64,000 nt of DNA from Pseudanabaena sp. BC1403. Lineage in GTDB: Bacteria; Cyanobacteriota; Cyanobacteriia; Pseudanabaenales; Pseudanabaenaceae. Made by a program: the position numbers and the translations under genes. How positions within the stretch are numbered: position 1 is the stretch's first letter; every line of letters starts with the position of its first letter. The notes beneath the pieces were generated by a model. That model was given only the letters and a program-made list of their open reading frames with translations, made no database searches and was not told the DNA's origin. Below, in pieces: positions 3,869-58,083 of the stretch. The stretch covers positions 62,001 to 126,000 of the forward strand of contig NZ_PDDM01000006.1 in the NCBI RefSeq assembly GCF_002914585.1. The letters run 5' to 3'.

Positions 3869-4463
3869 ATGAAATGTATATCAGGATATAAAGCCACAAA
3901 TGGAGTAGCGGCGCTAATCTATTTGTGGCTTTGATTTTGTCCTAATACCAATTCACAGAAGTGTTGTCATACCAAAGCACAAAGTGGCGTAGCCATTTTG
4001 TGTTTTGGTATTGCATAAATTGCTATAGCTATCTCAATTAAAAGCGCGATAAAAAATTACCGTTATTGATATTGTGTAAAGACTTGCGCAAAGCCATCAT
4101 TTACAGACCAATTGCAGATGACATTATCCAAACCACACAGCGTTTGCTAGCGACTAAAAGCCTATTAAGAGATCACTCTGGTGCTACTCAGAAGTTACAG
4201 GTAACTTTCGGTTGCTTATTGGTCGAACCAGCGAATCGTATTCATTGAGCCTAGAAATCAGTTTACAAGCCTGTTCTTAAAAAATCAGTAGTCCTCCTTA
4301 TGAAACTAATTCTGGGATTTGCTGGGATTTTGCTGAAATCAAGCTTTCAACAAACCTAATTTTTATAATGAGAATTGCTGTTAAAAAATAATAGGGCTTT
4401 GTCTATTCCTCGTTTTGTGTTAGCTTAAATAGACTCAATCTCTAAGGGGTACAGTAGGTTAAA
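3869..4463. other. non-coding gap with repeat debris
   Basis: A 595-bp stretch without a convincing gene. It holds an A-like fragment at about 3890-3940 (AAAGCCACAAAT...ATTTGTGGCTTT around a GC-rich centre), the partial E copy at 3943-4017, and a lone family B end (TTTATAATGAGAATTGC) near 4363-4379. A 60-codon open frame at 4066-4248 has no recognisable homology. The last 80 bp presumably carries the promoter for the small gene at 4464. Confidence 0.6.
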
Positions 4464-4718: not shown

Positions 4719-5171
4719 ATGACCACAAGTTTTGCCCTTGCTTTACATACAACGACTACCAAATTAGAGCTTGCGATCGCTGAACTTAACCCAAATTCTG
4801 ATCGCAATCCTCAAATCTATAGCATTCACAAGCAGCAGTCATGGGAACTAGGCAGAGAACTATCTCTACAGTTACATGACTGCTTAGGTTTGTTTGTGGG
4901 TGACCGCGCATGGACTGATTTTGCTTTTTTAGCGATCGCCACAGGTATCGGTAGTTTCACTGGCACAAGGATTGGCATTGTTGTTGCAAGGACAATTGGC
5001 GAGCAATTAAATATCCCTGTATATGGGATTGATTGCCCGACAATTGTGTCTAGATCACAGCAGTCTACTCCAAACTTATCTCTGAGCGAAAGCTTGTTAG
5101 CGATCGCTCACGATCAATGGCAAGCACGAATTTATCCTAGTTGGCAAGATGCTTTGCCAATCTATGAATAA
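4719..5171 (+). CDS. tsaB: tRNA threonylcarbamoyladenosine protein TsaB
   Basis: TsaB is the non-catalytic partner of TsaD in making t6A37 on ANN-decoding tRNAs. The N-terminal ASKHA-type strand (FALALHTTTTKLELAIAE) and the diagnostic GIGSFTGTRIGI segment are present. At 150 residues it is shorter than most bacterial TsaB proteins (about 200-230): the C-terminal half is reduced, ending soon after AIAHDQWQARIYPSW. No frameshift is evident and a terminator follows directly, so it looks like a naturally short form. Confidence 0.85.
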   Translation: MTTSFALALHTTTTKLELAIAELNPNSDRNPQIYSIHKQQSWELGRELSLQLHDCLGLFVGDRAWTDFAFLAIATGIGSFTGTRIGIVVARTIGEQLNIPVYGIDCPTIVSRSQQSTPNLSLSESLLAIAHDQWQARIYPSWQDALPIYE

Positions 5172-5207
5172 AAAGCAGAAGGGACGCTATGCGTCCCTTC
5201 TGCTTTT
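5171..5207 (+). terminator. tsaB terminator
   Basis: A 17-bp stem AAAAGCAGAAGGGACGC with loop TAT, directly at the tsaB stop codon and ending in TTTT. Confidence 0.85.
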
Positions 5208-8038: not shown

Positions 8039-9787
8039 GTGGTAGATGCTGTTGAGAGTCCTTCTATTGTAAATGTTGCAGAGAAGTCGATTGAACGCCG
8101 ACTCACTATCCAAGTTGCCGAAATTGCGGCTGACACGACCACAATCCGATCGCTTGATTGGGATCGCGATCGCTTTGATATCGAGTTTGGTTTGCAAAAT
8201 GGTACTACTTATAACTCTTTTATCATTCGTGGCGAAAAACTTGCGTTAGTCGATACATCCCACGCCAAGTTTCGTGAACTATATCTCAAAACTCTCCAAG
8301 GTCTAATTGATCCTGCACAGATTGATTATTTGGTAATTAGCCATACAGAGCCAGACCACAGTGGCTTAGTAAAGGAAATATTGTCCTTAGCCCCCAATGT
8401 CACTGTGGTGGCGACCAAAGTGGCTTTGCAGTTTCTGGGTGAGCTGATCAATCAGCCGTTTAAGCAACAAGTTGTCAAAAATGGCGATCAAGTTGATCTG
8501 GGCAATGGTCATATTTTGCAATTTGTGAATGCACCAAATCTGCATTGGCCAGACACAATGATGACCTTTGATCTTGGCACATCAATTTTGTATACCTGCG
8601 ATATTTTTGGAATGCATTATTGCAGTGATGCTGTTTACGATGAGGATTTAAAAAGAATTACGCCAGACTATCGCTTTTATTACGAATGCTTGATGGCTCC
8701 CAATGCGCGATCGGTAATTTCGGCGATGAAGCGGATGGATGATTTACCGCAAGCGGAAATCGTCGCAAATGGTCATGGGCCTTTGCTGCGCTATAACATC
8801 AAAGAACTGACCGAAAACTATCGCCAATGGAGCCAAGCACAAACTAAGGGCGAAACTAATGTAGTAGTTTGCTATGTGTCCGACTATGGCTATTGCGATC
8901 GCCTATCGCAGGCAATCGCCCGTGGTATTGCCAAAACTGGTGTGGCTGTGGAAATGGCAGATCTCAAAGCGATCGATTTACAGGAATTGCGTGAACTGGT
9001 CGGTCATGCGGCAGGTTTAGTCGTCTGCACACCGCCAGCAGCCAATAGTCATGTGGAAACGGCGATCGGCGCAATTCTTGCCGCAGCTAGTGAGAAGCAA
9101 GTAATTGGTCTGTATGAACCGCATGGAGATCAAGATTCCTCTATCGATTTGTTAAATAACAGATTTAAAGATTTGGGCGTTGTCACCGCGTTTCCAGCGA
9201 TTCGGGTTCGCGAAAATCCGAACGAGGCAATCTACCAAACCTGTGATGAAGCAGGTACTGACTTGGGGCAAATGCTAACTCGTAAGCAAAACATCAAACA
9301 ACTAAAAGCGATCGATGCCGATCTTGATAAAGCTTTAGGACGTTTAGCAGGTGGTTTGTATATTATCTCAGCCGCCAAAGGTGGTGCTCGCAGTGCGATG
9401 TTAGCTTCTTGGGTGGCTCAAGCCAGTTTCAAACCTCTCGGCTTTACCGTTGCCGTCGCAAAGGATCGGGCGATCGAGTCGTTTATGCAAGTAGGCGATC
9501 GCTTTGTGTTAAACGTTCTCGAAGATGGTAATTATTCCAAACTGATGCAGCATTTTCTAAAACGATTTGCTCCAGGGGCAGATCGCTTTGAAGGTGTCAA
9601 AACCCAATTATCGTCATTTGGCGCACCAATCCTCACTGATGCCCTAGCATTTATGGAATGTGAAGTGATAAGTCGGATGGAATGCAGCGATCACTGGATC
9701 ATCTATGCGATCGCTGAGGAAGGCAGGGTTTCTAAACCTGAGTCTCTCACCGCCGCCCACCACCGTAAAGTTGGTAACCATTACTAA
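8039..9787 (+). CDS. flv3: flavodiiron protein Flv3-type
   Basis: A 582-residue cyanobacterial flavodiiron protein. It has a metallo-beta-lactamase-like diiron domain, a flavodoxin domain (from about 270) and a C-terminal flavin reductase domain (from about 430). The diiron ligands are all canonical: H102, E104, D106, H107 (HTEPDH), H169, D188 and H246. That favours Flv3 or Flv2 over Flv1 or Flv4, and the N-terminal RSLDWDRDRFDIEFGLQNG region matches Flv3 as I remember it. Flv3 with Flv1 reduces O2 to water behind photosystem I. The start is GTG with GGGAG upstream. No flv1 partner is in the window. Confidence 0.85.
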   Translation: MVDAVESPSIVNVAEKSIERRLTIQVAEIAADTTTIRSLDWDRDRFDIEFGLQNGTTYNSFIIRGEKLALVDTSHAKFRELYLKTLQGLIDPAQIDYLVISHTEPDHSGLVKEILSLAPNVTVVATKVALQFLGELINQPFKQQVVKNGDQVDLGNGHILQFVNAPNLHWPDTMMTFDLGTSILYTCDIFGMHYCSDAVYDEDLKRITPDYRFYYECLMAPNARSVISAMKRMDDLPQAEIVANGHGPLLRYNIKELTENYRQWSQAQTKGETNVVVCYVSDYGYCDRLSQAIARGIAKTGVAVEMADLKAIDLQELRELVGHAAGLVVCTPPAANSHVETAIGAILAAASEKQVIGLYEPHGDQDSSIDLLNNRFKDLGVVTAFPAIRVRENPNEAIYQTCDEAGTDLGQMLTRKQNIKQLKAIDADLDKALGRLAGGLYIISAAKGGARSAMLASWVAQASFKPLGFTVAVAKDRAIESFMQVGDRFVLNVLEDGNYSKLMQHFLKRFAPGADRFEGVKTQLSSFGAPILTDALAFMECEVISRMECSDHWIIYAIAEEGRVSKPESLTAAHHRKVGNHY

Positions 9788-9817
9788 AAAAAGAGGGCGC
9801 TTCGCGCCCTCTTTTTT
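9786..9817. terminator. bidirectional terminator flv3/uppS
   Basis: Stem AGAGGGCGC-TTC-GCGCCCTCT flanked by A and T runs. It sits between convergent flv3 and uppS and touches the uppS stop codon. Confidence 0.85.
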
Positions 9818-16304: not shown

Positions 16305-17177
16305 ATAAAGAGAAAAATAAGTGGTGCGCAGCAAACAAAACATCGATTGTGACGCAAATCAGTTAACGACAGATTTACGACACAATCGATGTTTATAGGA
16401 GGACTTAATCAGACTAAGGACATGATTTACAGCATTTTTCGCTTAACACCGAACCAACAGTTTTTTGAATGTATTGCTTTGTAAAACTTTTAAAAACTTT
16501 ATTATGGTTTATTTAATCAGAAATTGATGTATATATTATTTCTCATAATAATCAGCCTCAGAAAAGCCAGATAAAACTGTTATGGTGCTAATATATTCTA
16601 AGCCTGAGATTCATATCTGGTTAATACCATTACCCTAAGTTTTAATCAGATTCTAGAGAATTAAATACCCTTACTGAGTTGGATTTTTAATTCTCTAATT
16701 TACCTCTCTAAGTGGCGTTAAAGTTTTGTGAATTAGGATAACTCAGTCTTTCTAAATCTAAACGTATTGCATTTGTCATTTTTTTCAAAAAGTCTTACTC
16801 AATATAGCAATCTAGTATGTATAGCGTTTTTGTAAATGAGTACCCAATCATTTACAAAATAAAAAAATCACATTAAGGGGCGGGAGTTTGTACTTTGCCA
16901 TAGGCAAAATGCAAACAGCTATAGGAAGTGTAATTTAGTGTGAGCTTCCTACAAATATTACAATCTATTAATAATTGGCAACTCTAATTATGAAAATCAG
17001 CTTTGGCAAAAGCTAAACTTTGGTTGGCTTTTACCAAAACCGATTTAGTTTTTGCTGTGCCGAAGGCACAGCAAAAACTAAATCGTATCCACAAGGTGAA
17101 TTACCAATGAATAATTTTAAATTGCCATATATCAAATAAAAGTGTTAGATTTTGAAAACAGCAGTCAGCCTTAAGTT
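16305..17177. other. repeat-rich non-coding gap
   Basis: No gene is seen in this 873-bp stretch. It holds a separated inverted repeat AACATCGATTGTG / CACAATCGATGTT (about 16339-16392), a decayed family E piece at about 16664-16735 (CCCTTACTGAGTTGGATTTTTAATTCTC...GTGAATTAGGAT), and a decayed family B copy at about 16978-17103. The last still folds as CGATTTAGTTTTTGCTGTGCC-GAA with its complement. The AT-rich region before 17178 may hold the kinase promoter. Confidence 0.6.
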
Positions 17178-23047: not shown

Positions 23048-23196
23048 AGTCAAAGGCAGTAATTCTCATTATAAAAATCGGCTTTTTGAAAGCACGCCGT
23101 AGGCGTGTTTTCAAAAAGCCGATTTTGGTTTTGCCAGCGCCTTTGGCACTGGCAAAACCAAAATCGGCTTCATAATGAGAATTGTTGAGTCAAAGG
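23048..23196. mobile_element. family B MITE-like element with 9-bp target duplication
   Basis: The 131-bp element at 23057-23187 is flanked by AGTCAAAGG on both sides (23048-23056 and 23188-23196). Its ends are inverted: CAGTAATTCTCATTAT against CAACAATTCTCATTAT read on the other strand. Inside are two hairpins separated by AAAATCGG/CCGATTTT blocks, so the whole can fold as a three-way junction. No coding capacity, so a transposase must act in trans. Confidence 0.85.
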
Positions 23197-23233
23197 ATAA
23201 AGACGACGCAAAGCGTCGTCTTTATCCTTTGAC
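23189..23233 (-). terminator. terminator of the permease operon
   Basis: Stem GTCAAAGGATAAAGACGACGC-AAA and its complement, overlapping the last codons of the permease gene. Its distal arm coincides with the family B target duplication. Confidence 0.75.
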
Positions 23234-24070
23234 TCCGATACTAGCTTCGGTAGGAATGATGTAGCGTTGCAAAAATACAAACACGATAAATACTGGAAGC
23301 ATCGAAATTGCTGAGCCTGCGGCGATTAAACGCCAATCCTCAGAAAAAGCGCTAGCAAGACTGGCAATCCCGCGCGGTAATGTGTAAAGCTCAGCTTTAT
23401 CAACGATCGCTAATGGCCATAAAAAATCACCCCACATCGCCACAAAGGTAAATACAGCAAGAGTTGTGAGGGCAGGACGTGCCGCAGGCAACATAATGTG
23501 CCACCAAATCCCTAAGCTAGAGCAGCCATCCATTCGTGCCGCCTCTTCCATCTCCTTAGGGACGCTTTGAAAGGCTTGACGAAGTAGAAATATGCCAAAA
23601 GCAGAAATTACATAGGGAAAAATCAAGCCAGCGTATGTGTTCTTGAGATTTAGCTGAACTGCCAAGATATACAAGGGAATCATCGTGATTTGAAACGGAA
23701 TCATCGTTGTACCGACGATCGCCCAAAAAATCGGATCACGTCCTTTAAACTCTAGTCTGGCAAGAGGAAAGGCGGCGAGAGAGCAAAATAGCAAATTTAA
23801 AATGACGGTGATACTAGAGACAAAAAAGCTATTCCAGAGATAAAGATCGAAACGGGAATTTTTCCAGACCTTGATAAAGTTATCAAAGGTAGGTTGGGCA
23901 GGTAATAGCTGTGGTACAGATTGGAAAATATTTTCGTTAGGCGATTTAAAAGCAGTACTGATCAGCCAGAGTAGAGGAAACACCGTTAAAGTTGCGATCG
24001 CAATTAAAAGCATAAATTGCGGAATATTTTTAAGGAGATTGAATGATGATTTTGGATTTTTCTTATTCAT
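23222..24070 (-). CDS. carbohydrate ABC transporter permease, MalG type
   Basis: A 282-residue inner-membrane permease with six predicted TM helices and the EAA loop MEEAARMDGCSSLGIWWHI, which couples to the ATPase. N-terminal FPLLWLISTAFKSPNE is typical of the MalG/UgpE family. The ATG at 24070 is preferred over the upstream TTG. Its partner permease is at 25478-26395, separated by a cupin and a beta-lactamase. No binding protein or ATPase lies here, so these are supplied from elsewhere. Substrate cannot be told. Confidence 0.9.
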   Translation of the reverse strand: MNKKNPKSSFNLLKNIPQFMLLIAIATLTVFPLLWLISTAFKSPNENIFQSVPQLLPAQPTFDNFIKVWKNSRFDLYLWNSFFVSSITVILNLLFCSLAAFPLARLEFKGRDPIFWAIVGTTMIPFQITMIPLYILAVQLNLKNTYAGLIFPYVISAFGIFLLRQAFQSVPKEMEEAARMDGCSSLGIWWHIMLPAARPALTTLAVFTFVAMWGDFLWPLAIVDKAELYTLPRGIASLASAFSEDWRLIAAGSAISMLPVFIVFVFLQRYIIPTEASIGVKG

Positions 24071-41727: not shown

Positions 41728-41733
41728 AAAACA

Positions 41734-41860
41734 GCAATTCTCATTATAAAAATCGGTTGTTTGAAAGCCCGCCGTTGGCGGGCTTTCAAACAACCGATTT
41801 TAGTGTTTCCAGCGCCGAAGGCGCTGGAAACACCAAAATCGGTTGCATAATGAGAATTGC
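41734..41860. mobile_element. family B MITE-like element
   Basis: Inverted ends GCAATTCTCATTAT. First hairpin TTGTTTGAAAGCCCGCC-GTT-GGCGGGCTTTCAAACAA, second GTTTCCAGCGCC-GAA-GGCGCTGGAAAC. It is nearly identical to the copy at 48204 except at the hairpin tips. It sits 6 bp from the cobG stop. A target duplication is not clear because both flanks are A-rich. Confidence 0.8.
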
Positions 41861-41899
41861 AAACAAAAAAGGCGGCGCATTGCGCCGCCTTTTTTGTTT
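41861..41899. terminator. gyrB terminator
   Basis: AAACAAAAAAGGCGGCGCA / TGCGCCGCCTTTTTTGTTT, a perfect stem, 10 bp after the minus-strand gyrB stop codon. Confidence 0.85.
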
Positions 41900-41909
41900 G
41901 CATATCAAA

Positions 41910-48180: not shown

Positions 48181-48390
48181 TAACCCAAGTTGCGACCTAT
48201 GGTTAGCAGTTCTCATTATAAAAATCGGTTGTTTGAAAGCCCGCCAAAGGCGGGCTTTCAAACAACCGATTTTGGTGTTTCCAGCGCCTTCGGCGCTGGA
48301 AACACCAAAATCGGTTTCATAATGAGAATTGCTGACCTATGGTAAGAAGAGAAAAATGCTGCTACAAATGACAATTGTCGAGTAGCAGCA
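48181..48390. mobile_element. IS982-type remnant interrupted by a family B element
   Basis: TAACCCAAGTTGCGACCTATGGT (48181-48203) and, after the insertion, GGTAAGAAGAGAAAAATGCTGC... to GAGTAGCAGC (48341-48389) align with the IS982-related relic at 52525-52980 read on the minus strand. Only about 70 bp of the relic remain. Confidence 0.7.
48194..48343. mobile_element. family B MITE-like element with 10-bp target duplication
   Basis: Element at 48204-48333 (130 bp), flanked by GACCTATGGT at 48194-48203 and 48334-48343. Ends TAGCAGTTCTCATTAT and AGCAATTCTCATTAT (inverted). Hairpins with tips GCCCGCC-AAA-GGCGGGC and GCGCC-TTC-GGCGC. The uninterrupted site is present at 52946-52975 on the other strand. 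Confidence 0.9.
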
Positions 48391-48540
48391 AGAAAAATGA
48401 ATAATGAAATTATAGCGATTTATTTCCTATGTGACGACATTGTGCACGCGACGACATTTTGCGCACAATAAATCATCAATGCGATATACAGCAACAGATG
48501 AGTGATGCCGAAGTAATGAACACAGCCATAATTGCAGTTC

Positions 48541-48716
48541 TGTATTTACTCCTTTCCCAGTCAAGAAATAGCGGTGCGGGGATTCGCCCCGCACCGCTAT
48601 TTCTTGGTTTTATATGTCTATTTCTTCGGTGGGAAGGGAGTAAGTGGAAATTAAAAAAAAAGAGAGAGTACCGCCCGTGTAGCGGACGGTACTCTCTCTT
48701 TTTTAATTATGCTGAA
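48541..48716. repeat. family C and family D elements in tandem
   Basis: 48541-48641 is family C: TACTCCTTTCCCAGTCAAG, stem AAATAGCGGTGCGGGG-ATTC with complement, then GGTGGGAAGGGAGTA. 48648-48716 is family D: AATTAAAAAAAAAGAGAGAG, stem GTACCGCCCG-TGTAG with complement, then TTTTTTAATTATGCTGAACTACC. The preceding 48391-48540 shows nothing recognisable. Confidence 0.75.
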
Positions 48717-48738
48717 CTACCTAATTCACCTAAACAAG

Positions 48739-49935
48739 CTAAGTATTGAGCATCTTTGTGTAAAGATCTTGAGTAGCCACAGCGATATTGTCCCAAGAGT
48801 TTTCTTCTGCATATTCTAAAGAATTTTTAACCAATTTACTCTTCAATACGATGTTTTCATCTAATTTCAAAATCTCCCAAGCTAGTTCTCTTGGGGATTC
48901 TGGAGATACTAAAAGCAGACATCGCTTATTTTGATTCAGTTCAAGGAAAGCAGGAATTCTACTTGCAATAACTGGTTTACCAGAACTTAAAGCCCAAGTT
49001 ATCGCTCCTGAAGCTGATAAGAGAGATGAAGGTAAATAAGGAGCCAGAAATATGTCTGTAGCTTTGCTATACAATTTGAAAGTCTCAAAATCAACGTATC
49101 CAGTGATTACTACTCTGTCAACTAGTTCCAAATTATTAATTAACTCTAAGATTTTATCCAAAAATCCATCTTTTTTTTCATAGGGGTGCGTACCTCCAAG
49201 AATAACTAATTTATAGTTATTAGGAAGGTACTTTAACGTACTTATAGCAGTAACGTAGCCTTTATTTTCTGATATGAAGCCAAATATGGACAAAAGTTTA
49301 GTATCGCTTGAAAAATTAAGAATTGACCTATAGTCAAGTTCAGTTAACGATTCACGTATTTCCCTTAAAGAAGAAGAAACTCCGTGGCTTACTAAGTGTA
49401 CCGATTTAGCACTAAAACCACTTTCGAGAAGATTTAATCTCGATCTGGTTGTGTGAGAAATTGCAATAAACCTACTTGCATTACCAAAAAATGGACTAAT
49501 CTTCGTACTCCATTTCCATGTTTGGAATGCATTACTTAATATCCTTAAAGACCTCTCTAATTCACCTATATCATTGCGGTCTAGTTTTTGAACAAAAATA
49601 GGATCTGCGTGAAAAGTAACAATTACTCTACTGTTATTTTCCTTTAAATGACTTAGCATCTCGCTAAAGATATCGATAGATTTATATAGGGGATAAGAAC
49701 CATTAAAGAAAGCGTGCTCATGCTGTATATGAACTATATCAAATTCTCTGGCTTTTTCACAAAAAAGCTTAAAAAAATCTCTAATTTCTTTTAATGATAG
49801 ATGTTGAATTTCCTCTCTTTTGATTGGATAAATTTCACTGTCAACATCTTTGCTATTTAAGGAATTTACTAGATGGTTTGTATAAGCGGAAATCCCACAA
49901 ACTTCTTTCCATGTACTTAAATGAATTGCTCTCAT
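48739..49935 (-). CDS. glycosyltransferase family 4
   Basis: A 398-residue GT-B fold enzyme. N-terminal acceptor domain begins MRAIHLSTWKEVCGISAYT and includes FDIVHIQHEHAFF. The C-terminal donor domain has GFISENKGY, KLVILGGTHPYE, VVITGYVDFETF and the late APYLPSSLLSASGAITWALSSGKP block in place of the usual E-x7-E. Substrate unknown. The gene is AT-rich and lacks HIP1 sites, unlike the flanking core genes, which suggests acquisition. Confidence 0.85.
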   Translation of the reverse strand: MRAIHLSTWKEVCGISAYTNHLVNSLNSKDVDSEIYPIKREEIQHLSLKEIRDFFKLFCEKAREFDIVHIQHEHAFFNGSYPLYKSIDIFSEMLSHLKENNSRVIVTFHADPIFVQKLDRNDIGELERSLRILSNAFQTWKWSTKISPFFGNASRFIAISHTTRSRLNLLESGFSAKSVHLVSHGVSSSLREIRESLTELDYRSILNFSSDTKLLSIFGFISENKGYVTAISTLKYLPNNYKLVILGGTHPYEKKDGFLDKILELINNLELVDRVVITGYVDFETFKLYSKATDIFLAPYLPSSLLSASGAITWALSSGKPVIASRIPAFLELNQNKRCLLLVSPESPRELAWEILKLDENIVLKSKLVKNSLEYAEENSWDNIAVATQDLYTKMLNT

Positions 49936-51141
49936 TAATTTAATGCAAATAGACTTTATATAAGTAGATAGACATAATTAAAAGCCATAATCAAAACCTT
50001 TAGTATGTTTGTAATCTAACATCAGTTCTGGTTAAGCTTACAAATTTTACAAGTCCAGAAACAAAAGCCTTGCTAAGCAAAGCTTTTGTTTCTGGACTTT
50101 GAGAGAGGGTTTGCTACGCAAACCCTCTCTCAAAGTCCGTTTGAAACTGTCCCGAGCTGTCGTTAATCTAGGCTTCGGGCTTTTGGGTATTATATTTAAT
50201 TTCACATAGCTGCTTATTGTGAAAAAATGAGACTAAGTATTCGTATCGATATTGATTATCCCCATATTAAGGTATTGGAAACCTAATTTCGGTTTAGATT
50301 AAGTGAATCAGACCCCGATGTCGTGAGGGTCTAAAGGTGATTCTTAAACATCCCCGCAAGGGATTGGAACTGTATAACCTAATGTGAAGGAAGCTGGTAG
50401 ACCTATTAGACTAATCAGGATGACTGCGATCGCTAAAGCGGCTAAACTGTTATTCAAGGATTTAGTTGATATACTTCATTAAATTAAAAGGTAATTTTCA
50501 TATCATTGAAAATTACCTTTTAAAAATTCAAATAACCTATCTAGAGTGAAGTCGCATCTCAAGAAAAACCCATGATAATTTTTTTGAAGATATCCAAAAT
50601 AACCACCAAAATTACCGCTAAAATACAAGTATGTTAGATTTATGATGATGTAGAGTTTATGATTCATAAAAATCACAAGCTCTCAGGTAACCACTATCTA
50701 GATACTCACAAGCATCAACTAGCATTCACCTTTAACTTATTGAGAAACTTAAAATCAAGGATTTTGATGGGGGCATATATAACTGATATAGGAGATTGGA
50801 TGCTACTTATAGCATCTGGGAAAGCTATAAGTAGCTGGGCAGAATTACAACCAAGACCAAAACCTATAGCGCAACCTGCGCTTTCATTACAGGTTTTAGG
50901 ATTTTATATTTAGTTGAGCTTAGCCACTTCGTTCACTATAGTCCTCATCCATAAGCAAATTGCTAGGAATTCCCCACGGGCTTTATGATATCGCAATCCT
51001 TCTGCAAAGCGCTGGATTTCAATACCCTATATTGACTGGAGTTCTTTTAGCAAGAGCATCCTTCTACCTTCAATCAATATGTATTCCACATTCTACTAAC
51101 TTCAATTCTTAAAGTTGATTGAACTATTCTAATCTGCACTT
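49936..51141. other. gap inside the glycosyltransferase island
   Basis: A 1.2-kb stretch without a convincing gene. It holds a double hairpin at 50051-50147 (AGTCCAGAAACAAAAGC and complement, then CTTTGAGAGAGGGTTTGC and complement), a palindrome AAAAGGTAATTTTCA...TGAAAATTACCTTTT (50488-50522), and a lone CATCCCCGCAAGGGATTGGAAC resembling a CRISPR repeat tail. An 84-codon frame at 50659 has no recognisable homology. Confidence 0.5.
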
Positions 51142-52419
51142 ATGAAAGCATTGTTTGTATTTGATCGTCCCTTGTATCCTTTGAGAGGTGGGGCTGAGTC
51201 TAGAGCTTTTGATCATCTTCATTATTTAGAGTCCAGAAATATAGAATATGACTTATTTTTGATAGATAAATACTTCAACTATAATCAATGGAATAAAGAC
51301 AGTATAGAGATGCTATTAGATCAGAGGCGCGTCAATAAAGTCTTTTTGCATCAGGTACTGGGCAAAAGCTCTTTTGATGCTGCTTATCATAAACTGCTAT
51401 CAAAATTCTATAAATATATAAATAAGGAACCGAGTGTATTATCTTTAATTCATTTTCTACCATTCATGAGAAGAAATTTTAGAAGTATCGTTAGGAATAA
51501 TAGATATGATTTTATATTTTTCAACCATACTTACATCTCCAATGCTTTAGTGAGTGGTTTTTCTATTCCTTGTAAAACATATATAGATATCCACGATATA
51601 CATTCTAATCTAATACAAGAATCTCTTGATTTGAAAAAACTTTATAGTAAGGTAAGCTATTCTGGTTCGCTAAGAGCTTTGACTAGAAATAAAGTTAGAG
51701 ATTTTGATTATCACACAAGCTTCAGTCAAGAATTGAAAGTACTTAGAAAGTTTAACAAGGTCATCACTATTTCAAATGAAGAACTTAACATATTAAAGCA
51801 AGACGAATCGCTTTCATCAAATTCTATTTTGATTCCAAAAATTAATTTTTCAAACAATACAATAAGTACTTATGCTAAAAGCTATAATAACAGCCTAGAA
51901 GGGGGGATTAATCAAAAATTCAAGCTGCTATTTTTTGGTTCCCAATACGATCCTAACGTGCATGGAATCTCAAGCTTTTATTATAACGTTATTCCCTATT
52001 TAAATCATCAAGTAGAAATATTAGTAGCAGGTGGCGTTTCCTCATACTTTCTCAACAAGAAACATCCTCAATTAAGAGTACTGGGATTTGTAGACAACAT
52101 ATCAGATTTATATAAGTCTGCTGATGCTGTCATAGTACCTATATTTTATGGTAGCGGAGTCTCAATAAAAGCAATTGAGGCTTTAAGTTATGGAAAACCA
52201 GTCATATCGACATTAAAAGGAGTCCGTGGATTGTCATTAGAGTACGGAAAAGATGTATTAATTGCTGAAGATATACATGCTTTTATTCCTTTAATTGAGA
52301 AACTGAGATTGAACTCTAACTTATATAATTCATTAAGTGATAACGCTCTTAAGTACATTCAGAAATACCACTCTGAAGAAATAGTTTATAGTAAAATGGA
52401 TAGTATATTTCTTAGTTAG
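51142..52419 (+). CDS. glycosyltransferase family 4-like
   Basis: A 425-residue GT-B protein. The start MKALFVFDRPLYPLRGGAESR has the glycine-rich nucleotide-facing loop. A long basic middle (about 75-240) precedes KLLFFGSQYDPNVHG, EILVAGGVSS, RVLGFVDNISDLYKSADAVIVP and FYGSGVSIKAIEALSYGKPVI with the donor E-x7-G pattern. It resembles enzymes of surface polysaccharide loci. AT-rich, no HIP1, many AGA/ATA codons: probably acquired. Confidence 0.85.
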   Translation: MKALFVFDRPLYPLRGGAESRAFDHLHYLESRNIEYDLFLIDKYFNYNQWNKDSIEMLLDQRRVNKVFLHQVLGKSSFDAAYHKLLSKFYKYINKEPSVLSLIHFLPFMRRNFRSIVRNNRYDFIFFNHTYISNALVSGFSIPCKTYIDIHDIHSNLIQESLDLKKLYSKVSYSGSLRALTRNKVRDFDYHTSFSQELKVLRKFNKVITISNEELNILKQDESLSSNSILIPKINFSNNTISTYAKSYNNSLEGGINQKFKLLFFGSQYDPNVHGISSFYYNVIPYLNHQVEILVAGGVSSYFLNKKHPQLRVLGFVDNISDLYKSADAVIVPIFYGSGVSIKAIEALSYGKPVISTLKGVRGLSLEYGKDVLIAEDIHAFIPLIEKLRLNSNLYNSLSDNALKYIQKYHSEEIVYSKMDSIFLS

Positions 52420-52524
52420 TTTATTGATACTTATATATCATTGATATTGATATCAACAGAATCGTATATTACGGCAAACCTAGGATATTTTTTTAAACCG
52501 TAGTAGATAGTTTCATTCTTTTTG

Positions 52525-52980
52525 TTAATTAACCGAAGTTACACCCCATAGATTAACGCTAAGAGCAAGAACAAAGAGCATGACTTTAAGCTCAAAACCT
52601 TTTGAAGTAACAGCATGAATAGATTTAGGTAAAAGCTGGGATATCAAACTACTAGTGGTTTCGACTACTTTACGCTTATGGTGCTGGAGAAACTGAACAT
52701 AGCTAGGTACAGGTCGTTTTGAATTGCTTTTTCGCATAGCTGAGAGCTTAATATTCTCAGATTCAAACAACAAATCCTCAATTTTATAATCGTTGTAAGC
52801 CTTGTCTGCATAAACTACACTGCCTTCAGGTAAAGCAAATGAAAATACCCTCAACCTCTTAACATCGGCAAATGAGCCTGAAGTTAGAAAAAACTCTACA
52901 GGTTCCGCTGCTACTCGGATTTTGTCCTTTTTAGCAGCATTTTTTTCTTCTTACCATAGGTCGCAGCTTGGGTTAGTTAC
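52525..52980 (-). pseudogene. IS982-family transposase remnant
   Basis: The reading frame gives AAEPVEFFLTSGSFADVKRL, then VYADKAYNDYKIEDLLFE, HHKRKVVETTSSLISQLLPKSIHAVTSKGFELK and a hydrophobic end: the C-terminal half of an IS982-type DDE transposase. No ATG is present (TTG at 52854). The frame breaks at an A-run near 52950, and upstream only about 25 bp more (TAACCCAAGCTGCGACC) are shared with the relic at 48181. The N-terminal half is missing. Confidence 0.8.
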
Positions 52981-54343: not shown

Positions 54344-54356
54344 AAGGAAAACCGCA

Positions 54357-54482
54357 ACTAGAATGATTGTGCTTTATGTGGCAAAGCCACATAAAGCACA
54401 ATCATTCTAGTTCAGCAAACCTGATTATCAAAACCAATTTTTTGAAAGCCCACCGAAGGCGGGCTTTCAAAAAATTGGTTTT
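54357..54482. repeat. two large hairpins between dacB and gmk
   Basis: First 54357-54411: ACTAGAATGATTGTGCTTTA... and perfect complement around AAA. Second 54430-54482: AAAACCAATTTTTTGAAAGC...CACC-GAAG with complement, similar in design to the first arm of family B. The second probably terminates gmk. Confidence 0.75.
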
Positions 54483-55718: not shown

Positions 55719-56663
55719 ATGTCAGATATTAGAAATGTAGTGATTATTGGTTCAGGGCCCGCAGGCTATACTGCTGCGATTTATGCTGGGCGAGCTAACC
55801 TTAATCCACTTGTATTTGAGGGATTCCAGAAGGGAGGCATCCCTGGCGGACAATTGATGACGACGACGGAAGTAGAGAACTTCCCTGGGTTTCCCACGGG
55901 AGTAATGGGACCGCAGTTGATGAGCTATATCAAGGAACAAGCTATCAATTGCGGAGCGGAATTGATAATGGAAGATGTGACTTCTGTTGATTTCAGCGAT
56001 CGCCCTTTTACGATTAAATATTCATCTCACGAAGTCCAAACTCACAGCGTGATCATCGCCACAGGTGCAACTGCGAAAAGGCTCCATTTACCCAGTGAAC
56101 CGAAGTATTGGAATCGTGGAATTTCGGCATGTGCAGTATGTGATGGCGCTGCGCCAATCTTTCGTGGTGTGGAGTTAGCGGTAGTTGGTGGTGGTGATAC
56201 GGCTGCGGAAGAATCGATTTTCTTAACTAAATATGGTTCAAAAGTCCATTTGCTTGTGCGTGGCGATCGCATGAGAGCCAGTAAAATCATGCAAGATCGC
56301 GTATTGGCACATCCGAAAATTACGGTGCATTGGCAATCTATCCCGATTGATGTTTATGGTGAAGAGATTGTTAAAGGGGTAAAGCTTCGCCATGCTGTCA
56401 CTAATGAGGAGAGTGATTTAGCTGTTGGCGGACTCTTTTATGCGATCGGGCATAGTCCGAATACAGATTTATTTGTGGGACAGATAGAACTTGATGCGAC
56501 GGGTTATATCATCACAAAAGGAAAGTCAACAGCTACTAATATTGCAGGTGTCTATGCCTGTGGCGATGTCCAAGACCACGAATATCGCCAAGCAATTACT
56601 GCCGCAGGAACAGGATGCATGGCAGCACTCGAAGCAGAGCGATGGCTATCTGCACAAACCTAA
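55719..56663 (+). CDS. trxB: thioredoxin reductase (NTR type)
   Basis: A 314-residue flavoenzyme passing NADPH electrons to thioredoxin. FAD motif [10 protein letters not shown] (11-20), redox pair CAVC at 138-141, NADPH motif [11 protein letters not shown], and the C-terminal [20 protein letters not shown]. There is no fused thioredoxin domain, so it is not NTRC. Monocistronic. Confidence 0.93.
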
Positions 56664-56701
56664 AAGATAAAGGCGGCACGAAGTGCCGCCTTTATCTTTT
56701 A
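56661..56701. terminator. bidirectional terminator trxB/trpB
   Basis: A perfect stem TAAAAGATAAAGGCGGCAC-GAA and complement, covering both convergent stop codon regions. Confidence 0.85.
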
Positions 56702-57931
56702 GAGATGTAAATGCTGAATTACTGTGTTTACATCTTTGTCACCACGACCAGAGCAGTTGATGATAATGCGCTGATCGGCGGTTAGTTGTGGGCAGAGAGT
56801 TTCTAGATAGGCGATCGCATGGGATGTTTCCAAAGCGGGAATGATTCCTTCCAAACGCGAGAGTCTTTGAAATGCATCGAGAGCTTCTTGATCCGTGACG
56901 CTGTAATATTCAGCACGACCTAGATCCTTGAGATAGCTATGCTCTGGCCCGACACCTGGATAATCTAAGCCAGCACTGATGGAATGTGCTTCTTGGACTT
57001 GTCCTTCTGAATCTTGCAAGAGATAGCTCATTGCGCCATGTAATACACCAACGCGCCCAAGCGTTAAAGTTGCGGCATGGAACTCTGTATTTGTGCCTTT
57101 ACCTGCTGCTTCCACACCGATCAAGCGAACGCTTGGCTCTTCGACAAATTCATGGAATAGACCCATCGCATTGGAGCCACCACCAACACAAGCAAGCAAA
57201 ATATCTGGTAAACCGCCCCATTTCTCTTGACTCTGGCGACGACTCTCCTTACCAATCACGGCATGAAAATCTCGCACAATCATTGGGTAAGGATGGGGGC
57301 CAGCAACGGAGCCAAGAATATAATGGGTATCGACGACATTTGTTACCCAGTCGCGAATTGCTTCAGATGTAGCATCTTTGAGCGTACCAGTACCAGCCTC
57401 AACGGGACGCACCTCTGCACCCATGAGTTTCATCCGAAATACATTCAGCGATTGGCGTTCCATGTCCTGTACGCCCATATAAATCACACAATCTAGACCA
57501 AAGCGAGCGCAAACAGTTGCCGTAGCTACACCATGCTGTCCTGCACCTGTTTCGGCAATTACGCGCTTTTTGCCCATGCGGATAGCGAGGAGAACTTGAG
57601 CTAGGGCATTATTGATTTTGTGCGCACCCGTATGGTTGAGGTCTTCACGCTTTAGATAAATCTGAGCAGTTCCATAGTGCTGCGTCAATCTCTCCGCAAA
57701 ATATAGAGGGCTGGGTCTACCCACATAGTCTCGCAAATAGCCGTCTAGCTCGTTGTTAAAATCTGGATCGGTTTTGTAATGATAAAAGGCGGTTTCCAGT
57801 TCAGCAAGGGCGCTCATAAGGGTTTCGGGGACATATTTGCCCCCGAAAATACCAAACCGTCCTAATGAGTCGGGACGATTGACGAGTGTGGGTTGTGTAG
57901 TTGTTTTGGGTGCGATCGGCGTTGTGGTCAT
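56699..57931 (-). CDS. trpB: tryptophan synthase beta chain
   Basis: Condenses indole with serine. PLP lysine K104 in [11 protein letters not shown], the glycine-rich phosphate loop [12 protein letters not shown], and EDLNHTGAH. 410 residues is the usual length. trpA is not adjacent. Upstream is a non-coding region with families H and A. Confidence 0.95.
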
Positions 57932-58011
57932 TGCGGTGGGTCTTGACTGATTAGTTAGCTACTATTAAAACTTGCTTGGGGTGCTTATGGCACTGTATTT
58001 AGGATAACAAA

Positions 58012-58083
58012 TTTTGAAAGTGCCGCTTCGCGGCACTTTCAAAATTTTCACTGGGTTTTAAGTCAGCGCAAAGCGCTGTAACA
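58012..58083. repeat. family H element
   Basis: Stem TTTTGAAAGTGCCGC-TTC-GCGGCACTTTCAAAA, then TTTTCACTGGGTTTTAAGTC and AGCGCAAAGCGCTGTAA. The counterpart at 45095-45172 has the same design with a different stem. Confidence 0.65.

Follow-up and report, generated by a model that had tools for sequence, protein, structure and literature searches.

A 131-bp MITE of Pseudanabaena bearing the ends of a Tn5-like insertion sequence found in congeners, and the inversion of its hairpin loops

A short non-coding repeat at position 48204 of the window (the 64-kb stretch of Pseudanabaena DNA analysed here) lies within an IS982 relic between two copies of one short sequence, which raises the question of what kind of element it is and which enzyme has moved it. 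The first-pass annotation had recognised a 130-bp element at 48204-48333 with target duplications of 9-10 bp. The element is present as described, but comparison of many copies sets its exact ends at (C/T)AGCA...TGCTG, giving 131 bp and an end at 48334; this copy starts with T, most other copies with C. Its direct repeats are real and perfect (9/9) with a length of 9 bp, the 10-mer GACCTATGGT resulting from the last base of the element being G and the left flank carrying a G by chance; the base left of the element is G in 10 of the 28 copies with perfect duplications. The second copy, at 23057-23187, has its own 9-mer, AGTCAAAGG, on both sides, as had been reported. No ORF of at least 70 aa overlaps the 48204 copy, in agreement with its earlier designation as a MITE devoid of coding capacity, and no Rfam match was found at the element. 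The alternative then offered, an excised structured-DNA element, found no support.

Table 1. Coordinates of the MITE copies, their duplications and hairpins, and the IS982 remnants in the window.
Feature	Position	Strand	Basis or remark
MITE copy 1, 131 bp	48204..48334	+	imperfect terminal inverted repeats TAGCAGTTCTCATTAT / CAGCAATTCTCATTAT; among at least 55 full-size genomic copies
Copy 1, left 9-bp target duplication ACCTATGGT	48195..48203	.	sequence
Copy 1, right 9-bp target duplication ACCTATGGT	48335..48343	.	sequence
Hairpin 1 within copy 1; AAA loop between perfect 25-bp arms	48221..48273	+	right arm extends into hairpin 2
Hairpin 2 within copy 1; TTC loop between perfect 25-bp arms	48264..48316	+	sequence
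MITE copy 2	23057..23187	+	orthologous empty sites in 7 congeners
Copy 2, left 9-bp target duplication AGTCAAAGG	23048..23056	.	sequence
Copy 2, right 9-bp target duplication AGTCAAAGG	23188..23196	.	sequence
MITE copy 3	41732..41862	+	no clear target duplication (5/9)
Diverged, internally reduced MITE copy, 95 bp	4286..4380	+	TTAAAAAAT duplication at 4277-4285 and 4381-4389
Paralogous uninterrupted (empty) site, one ACCTATGGT, in IS982 relic end	52907..52975 (first-pass: 52925-52980)	-	alignment
Truncated IS982-family transposase remnant	52525..52854	-	matches NF033520 in the C-terminal part only (E 8e-15, under the curated cut-off)

The window genome (G000) is a draft assembly of 5.5 Mb in 88 contigs, in which a search with the element found 119 matches, including partial ones to the hairpins, and a pattern search for the element ends gave 118 ends. 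The loci tabulated comprise at least 55 copies of full size, 127-149 bp long, and a further six that measure 44-45 bp; the genome holds about 60 copies. Perfect 9-bp duplications stand at the exact ends of 28 of the 55 full-size copies, and 9-mers matching in at least 8 of 9 positions at those of 36, versus 9 of 2970 flank cross-pairings used as null; with 1-bp slack the 36 copies become 42 of 55. A clear duplication is missing in about a quarter of the copies, which is compatible with age. The duplications around the copies are not chance, and most copies do carry them, the count on which the first-pass annotation had staked its reading. The ends occur in 28 of the 58 genomes searched, chiefly within Pseudanabaena, and no phage carrier is indicated, since neither ends nor transposase were found in the viral contigs searched.

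The uninterrupted IS982-related site on the minus strand of the window is identical to the joined flanks of the 48204 insertion at 61 of 69 bp (88%) and has a single copy of the target, which confirms the empty site that had been described. Being the end of a second IS982 relic, adjacent to the truncated IS982 transposase of Table 1, it is however paralogous and not the pre-insertion locus, and to call the element "caught in transposition" was an overstatement; the only strong whole-genome matches to the joined site are this empty site and the two flanks of the insertion. Orthologous empty sites, which are stronger evidence, came from a search of the joined flanks of several copies in 26 Pseudanabaena genomes. 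Alignments show the site of the 23057 copy uninterrupted in seven congeners (G019, G018, G008, G012, G022, G005 and G010); that of the copy at G000:C12:147212 is uninterrupted in several congeners, and that of G000:C4:144429 is uninterrupted in G019 and rearranged in G008. These sites place the insertions within one genus and, together with the genome-wide duplications, bear out the claim that the element moves as a unit.

The first-pass annotation could not name a parent transposase and had suggested looking for a full-length transposon with the same ends. Such a transposon was found in congeners, with no match in the window genome: an insertion sequence (IS) of 1418 bp in Pseudanabaena biceps O153 (G024) and in G020. 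Its ends are perfect CAGCAATTCTCATTAT repeats, it lies between 9-bp duplications and it encodes a 435-aa DDE transposase, which makes it a candidate parent. The copy at G024:C5:584-2001 has perfect 16-bp ends and GAGATTTAT on either side, and a copy in G020 (L334) is flanked by ACCATCGAC. MITE and IS are identical over 20 bp at one end and unrelated in their interiors. The element is thus short (131 bp), non-coding and multi-copy (at least 55 copies), has terminal inverted repeats (16-bp ends) and a target duplication of fixed length (9 bp), and shares ends and duplication length with an autonomous transposon. In Arthrospira, Leptolyngbya and Desulfoferrobacter, related IS have retained CAGCAATTCTCATT(A/T)T ends; several of their copies carry perfect 9-bp duplications. 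The transposase search gave 23 matches in G020. Other short non-coding elements with the same ends and different length and interior were noted (L092 in G056, L078 and L086), the first flanked by the 9-bp duplication GTTTGGGGA.

The predicted structure of the transposase (model pLDDT 89) has an RNase H-like Tn5 fold, its best matches being all Tn5 transposase (Z 21.8, 354 residues aligned, rmsd 4.5 A), followed by piggyBac-type transposases (Z 12-15) and others at about 8 or less. D127, D216/D217 and E336 are invariant in an alignment of 26 transposase sequences and are probably the catalytic D, D, E residues. Tn5 makes a 9-bp target duplication. Fold, DDE residues and duplication length therefore liken the parent IS to Tn5/IS50 and the IS4 superfamily, although sequence identity to the Tn5/IS50 transposase is about 10%, the terminal sequence is another one, and the protein passes the cut-off of no curated family model. 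Matches to sequence models are mostly weak: the first transposase sequence falls below the curated cut-offs of Pfam PF01609 and PF13808, which at E<0.01 match 10 and 12 of the 26 members; NF033591 (NCBIfam IS4) has weak matches in 13 of 26 and NF033564 (ISAs1 family) matches one of 26 (E 0.025). A PDB sequence search found no relative. An ISNCY-labelled protein of Gloeothece verrucosa PCC 7822 (WP_013335080.1) is 46% identical over 98% of the transposase, a comparison at the protein level only; the ISNCY label collects unclassified IS and does not denote a defined family.

We are highly confident that the element is a MITE with the ends of the 1418-bp Tn5-like IS, most likely moved in trans by the transposase of the latter. 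Of this Tn5-like (IS4-superfamily) DDE element the MITE retains no more than about 16-20 bp at the ends, which enclose an interior of two hairpins of other origin. The IS, at present found in sister species only, would supply transposase in trans; this enzyme would bring both MITE ends together, excise the MITE and insert it at a target whose strands are cut 9 bases apart, thus generating the 9-bp duplication; this cut-and-paste chemistry is put forward by analogy with Tn5, from the predicted fold and the duplication length. Since the transposase search found no match in the window genome, a draft assembly of the kind in which multi-copy IS may be lost, the causal link rests on the matching of ends and duplications in other species, and mobilisation of the window genome's own copies by the Tn5-like transposase is the most likely reading of these sequences.

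The strong hairpins could suggest instead a single-strand element of the REP/RAYT or IS200/IS605 kind, moved by a tyrosine HUH transposase. Such elements are not known to make a target duplication, whereas here 9-bp duplications are the rule, the terminal inverted repeats are common to a DDE transposon, and the orthologous empty sites contradict this origin, which we consider very improbable. Even less credit is due to the notion that the duplications are coincidental, or that the element spread by recombination instead of transposition: some copies do lack duplications, but the excess over the null pairings and the precise single-copy empty sites in congeners leave it practically no room. A more serious contender is another, unseen transposase that recognises the same ends and is still encoded in the window genome. 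Near-identical copies suggest fairly recent activity, yet the 1418-bp IS has no match in this genome, and the likewise MITE-rich G005, G008, G012 and G019 also gave none in the transposase search. On the other hand, the same search reached relatives down to about 47-49% identity in other genomes and yielded none here, and MITE families commonly lose their autonomous copy. We regard this second enzyme as unlikely, and favour the Tn5-like transposase acting in trans.

As a MITE the element is of an ordinary kind, and this identification is well supported; what is newly defined is the MITE/IS pair. In place of an orphan repeat there is now a MITE together with the Tn5-fold IS whose ends it bears, a pair that makes transposition in trans testable. 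Among the papers searched, none names Pseudanabaena together with a MITE and a transposase. A 187-nt Microcystis MITE is likewise cyanobacterial and tied to an IS through its ends and duplication length, but has 9-nt, ISL3-like ends, 8-bp duplications and an ISL3 parent (PMC11448079). Nezha (Zhou et al. 2008, cited in PMC3733652 and PMC10969869) is another cyanobacterial MITE.

The two internal hairpins share the arm AACCGATTTT. Among 39 copies of 131 bp, stem mismatches average 0.56 and 0.69 per 25 bp, versus about 2.4 per 25 per arm between copies, and the C-to-T variant AAAATTGG is found in all three arms together. The loop of hairpin 2 reads GAA in 15 copies and TTC in 14; on a tree from which the loops were left out, its orientation changes 14 times versus 12.7 +- 1.6 after shuffling of the labels, and is therefore without phylogenetic signal. 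Once inserted, the interior would change as one arm corrects the other and as loops invert; template switching during replication would be the simplest cause. In the 44-45-bp forms (L033, L059, L144, L145, L150 and L132) a single AAAATCGGTT-like arm stands between the two ends. Duplications matching in at least 8 of 9 positions flank five of the six, and the site of one 45-bp copy (G000:C13:137269) is empty in G018 and G008. Both observations fit either deletion after insertion, probably between the outer AAAATCGGTT repeats, or transposition as a 45-bp unit; the interiors differ (CGG, TGG and CAG variants), which points to separate origins.

Loop inversion extends to hairpins outside the MITE. 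By the criteria used the window contains 29 hairpins, some within MITE copies, and intergenic long perfect hairpins with 3-nt loops inverted in congeners lie at 5171-5207, 9787-9817, 23187-23235, 50094-50138, 54356-54412, 56660-56702 and 58009-58047. The loop is inverted in at least one congener at 7 of 11 orthologous intergenic sets, a small, hand-picked sample from Pseudanabaena only (10 from a search with window hairpins and one beside the 23057 copy). At one further locus (L290, L291) the orthologous hairpin core is the exact reverse complement between G018 and G008. Template switching between inverted-repeat arms has been described to homogenise the arms and invert the spacer (PMC8604942, PMC8794818); homogenised arms and near-random loop orientation are as expected of this known process. 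That Pseudanabaena inverts and homogenises perfect hairpins unusually often, MITE and intergenic loops flipping between close relatives, is a proposition that we hold evenly balanced. If true, template-switch mutation in bacteria would have a natural reporter in the multi-copy MITE, whose flips record what looks like template switching. Selection on RNA or DNA structure, e.g. a terminator, could also keep the hairpins perfect, in line with arms that differ far less within than between copies, but loops that invert at orthologous hairpins, and a hairpin 2 loop whose two orientations occur at close to 50:50 irrespective of the tree, are not predicted by selection on pairing alone. Such selection in place of template switching seems to us rather doubtful, although the two may operate together.

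Copy 3 abuts a hairpin at 41858-41902 (region 41732-41902), one arm of which extends over the terminal bases of the MITE, and this end has perhaps been rewritten via template switching. By eye, degenerate or half copies with one or two hairpins and damaged ends are visible at 16980-17085 and 54415-54480 of the window.
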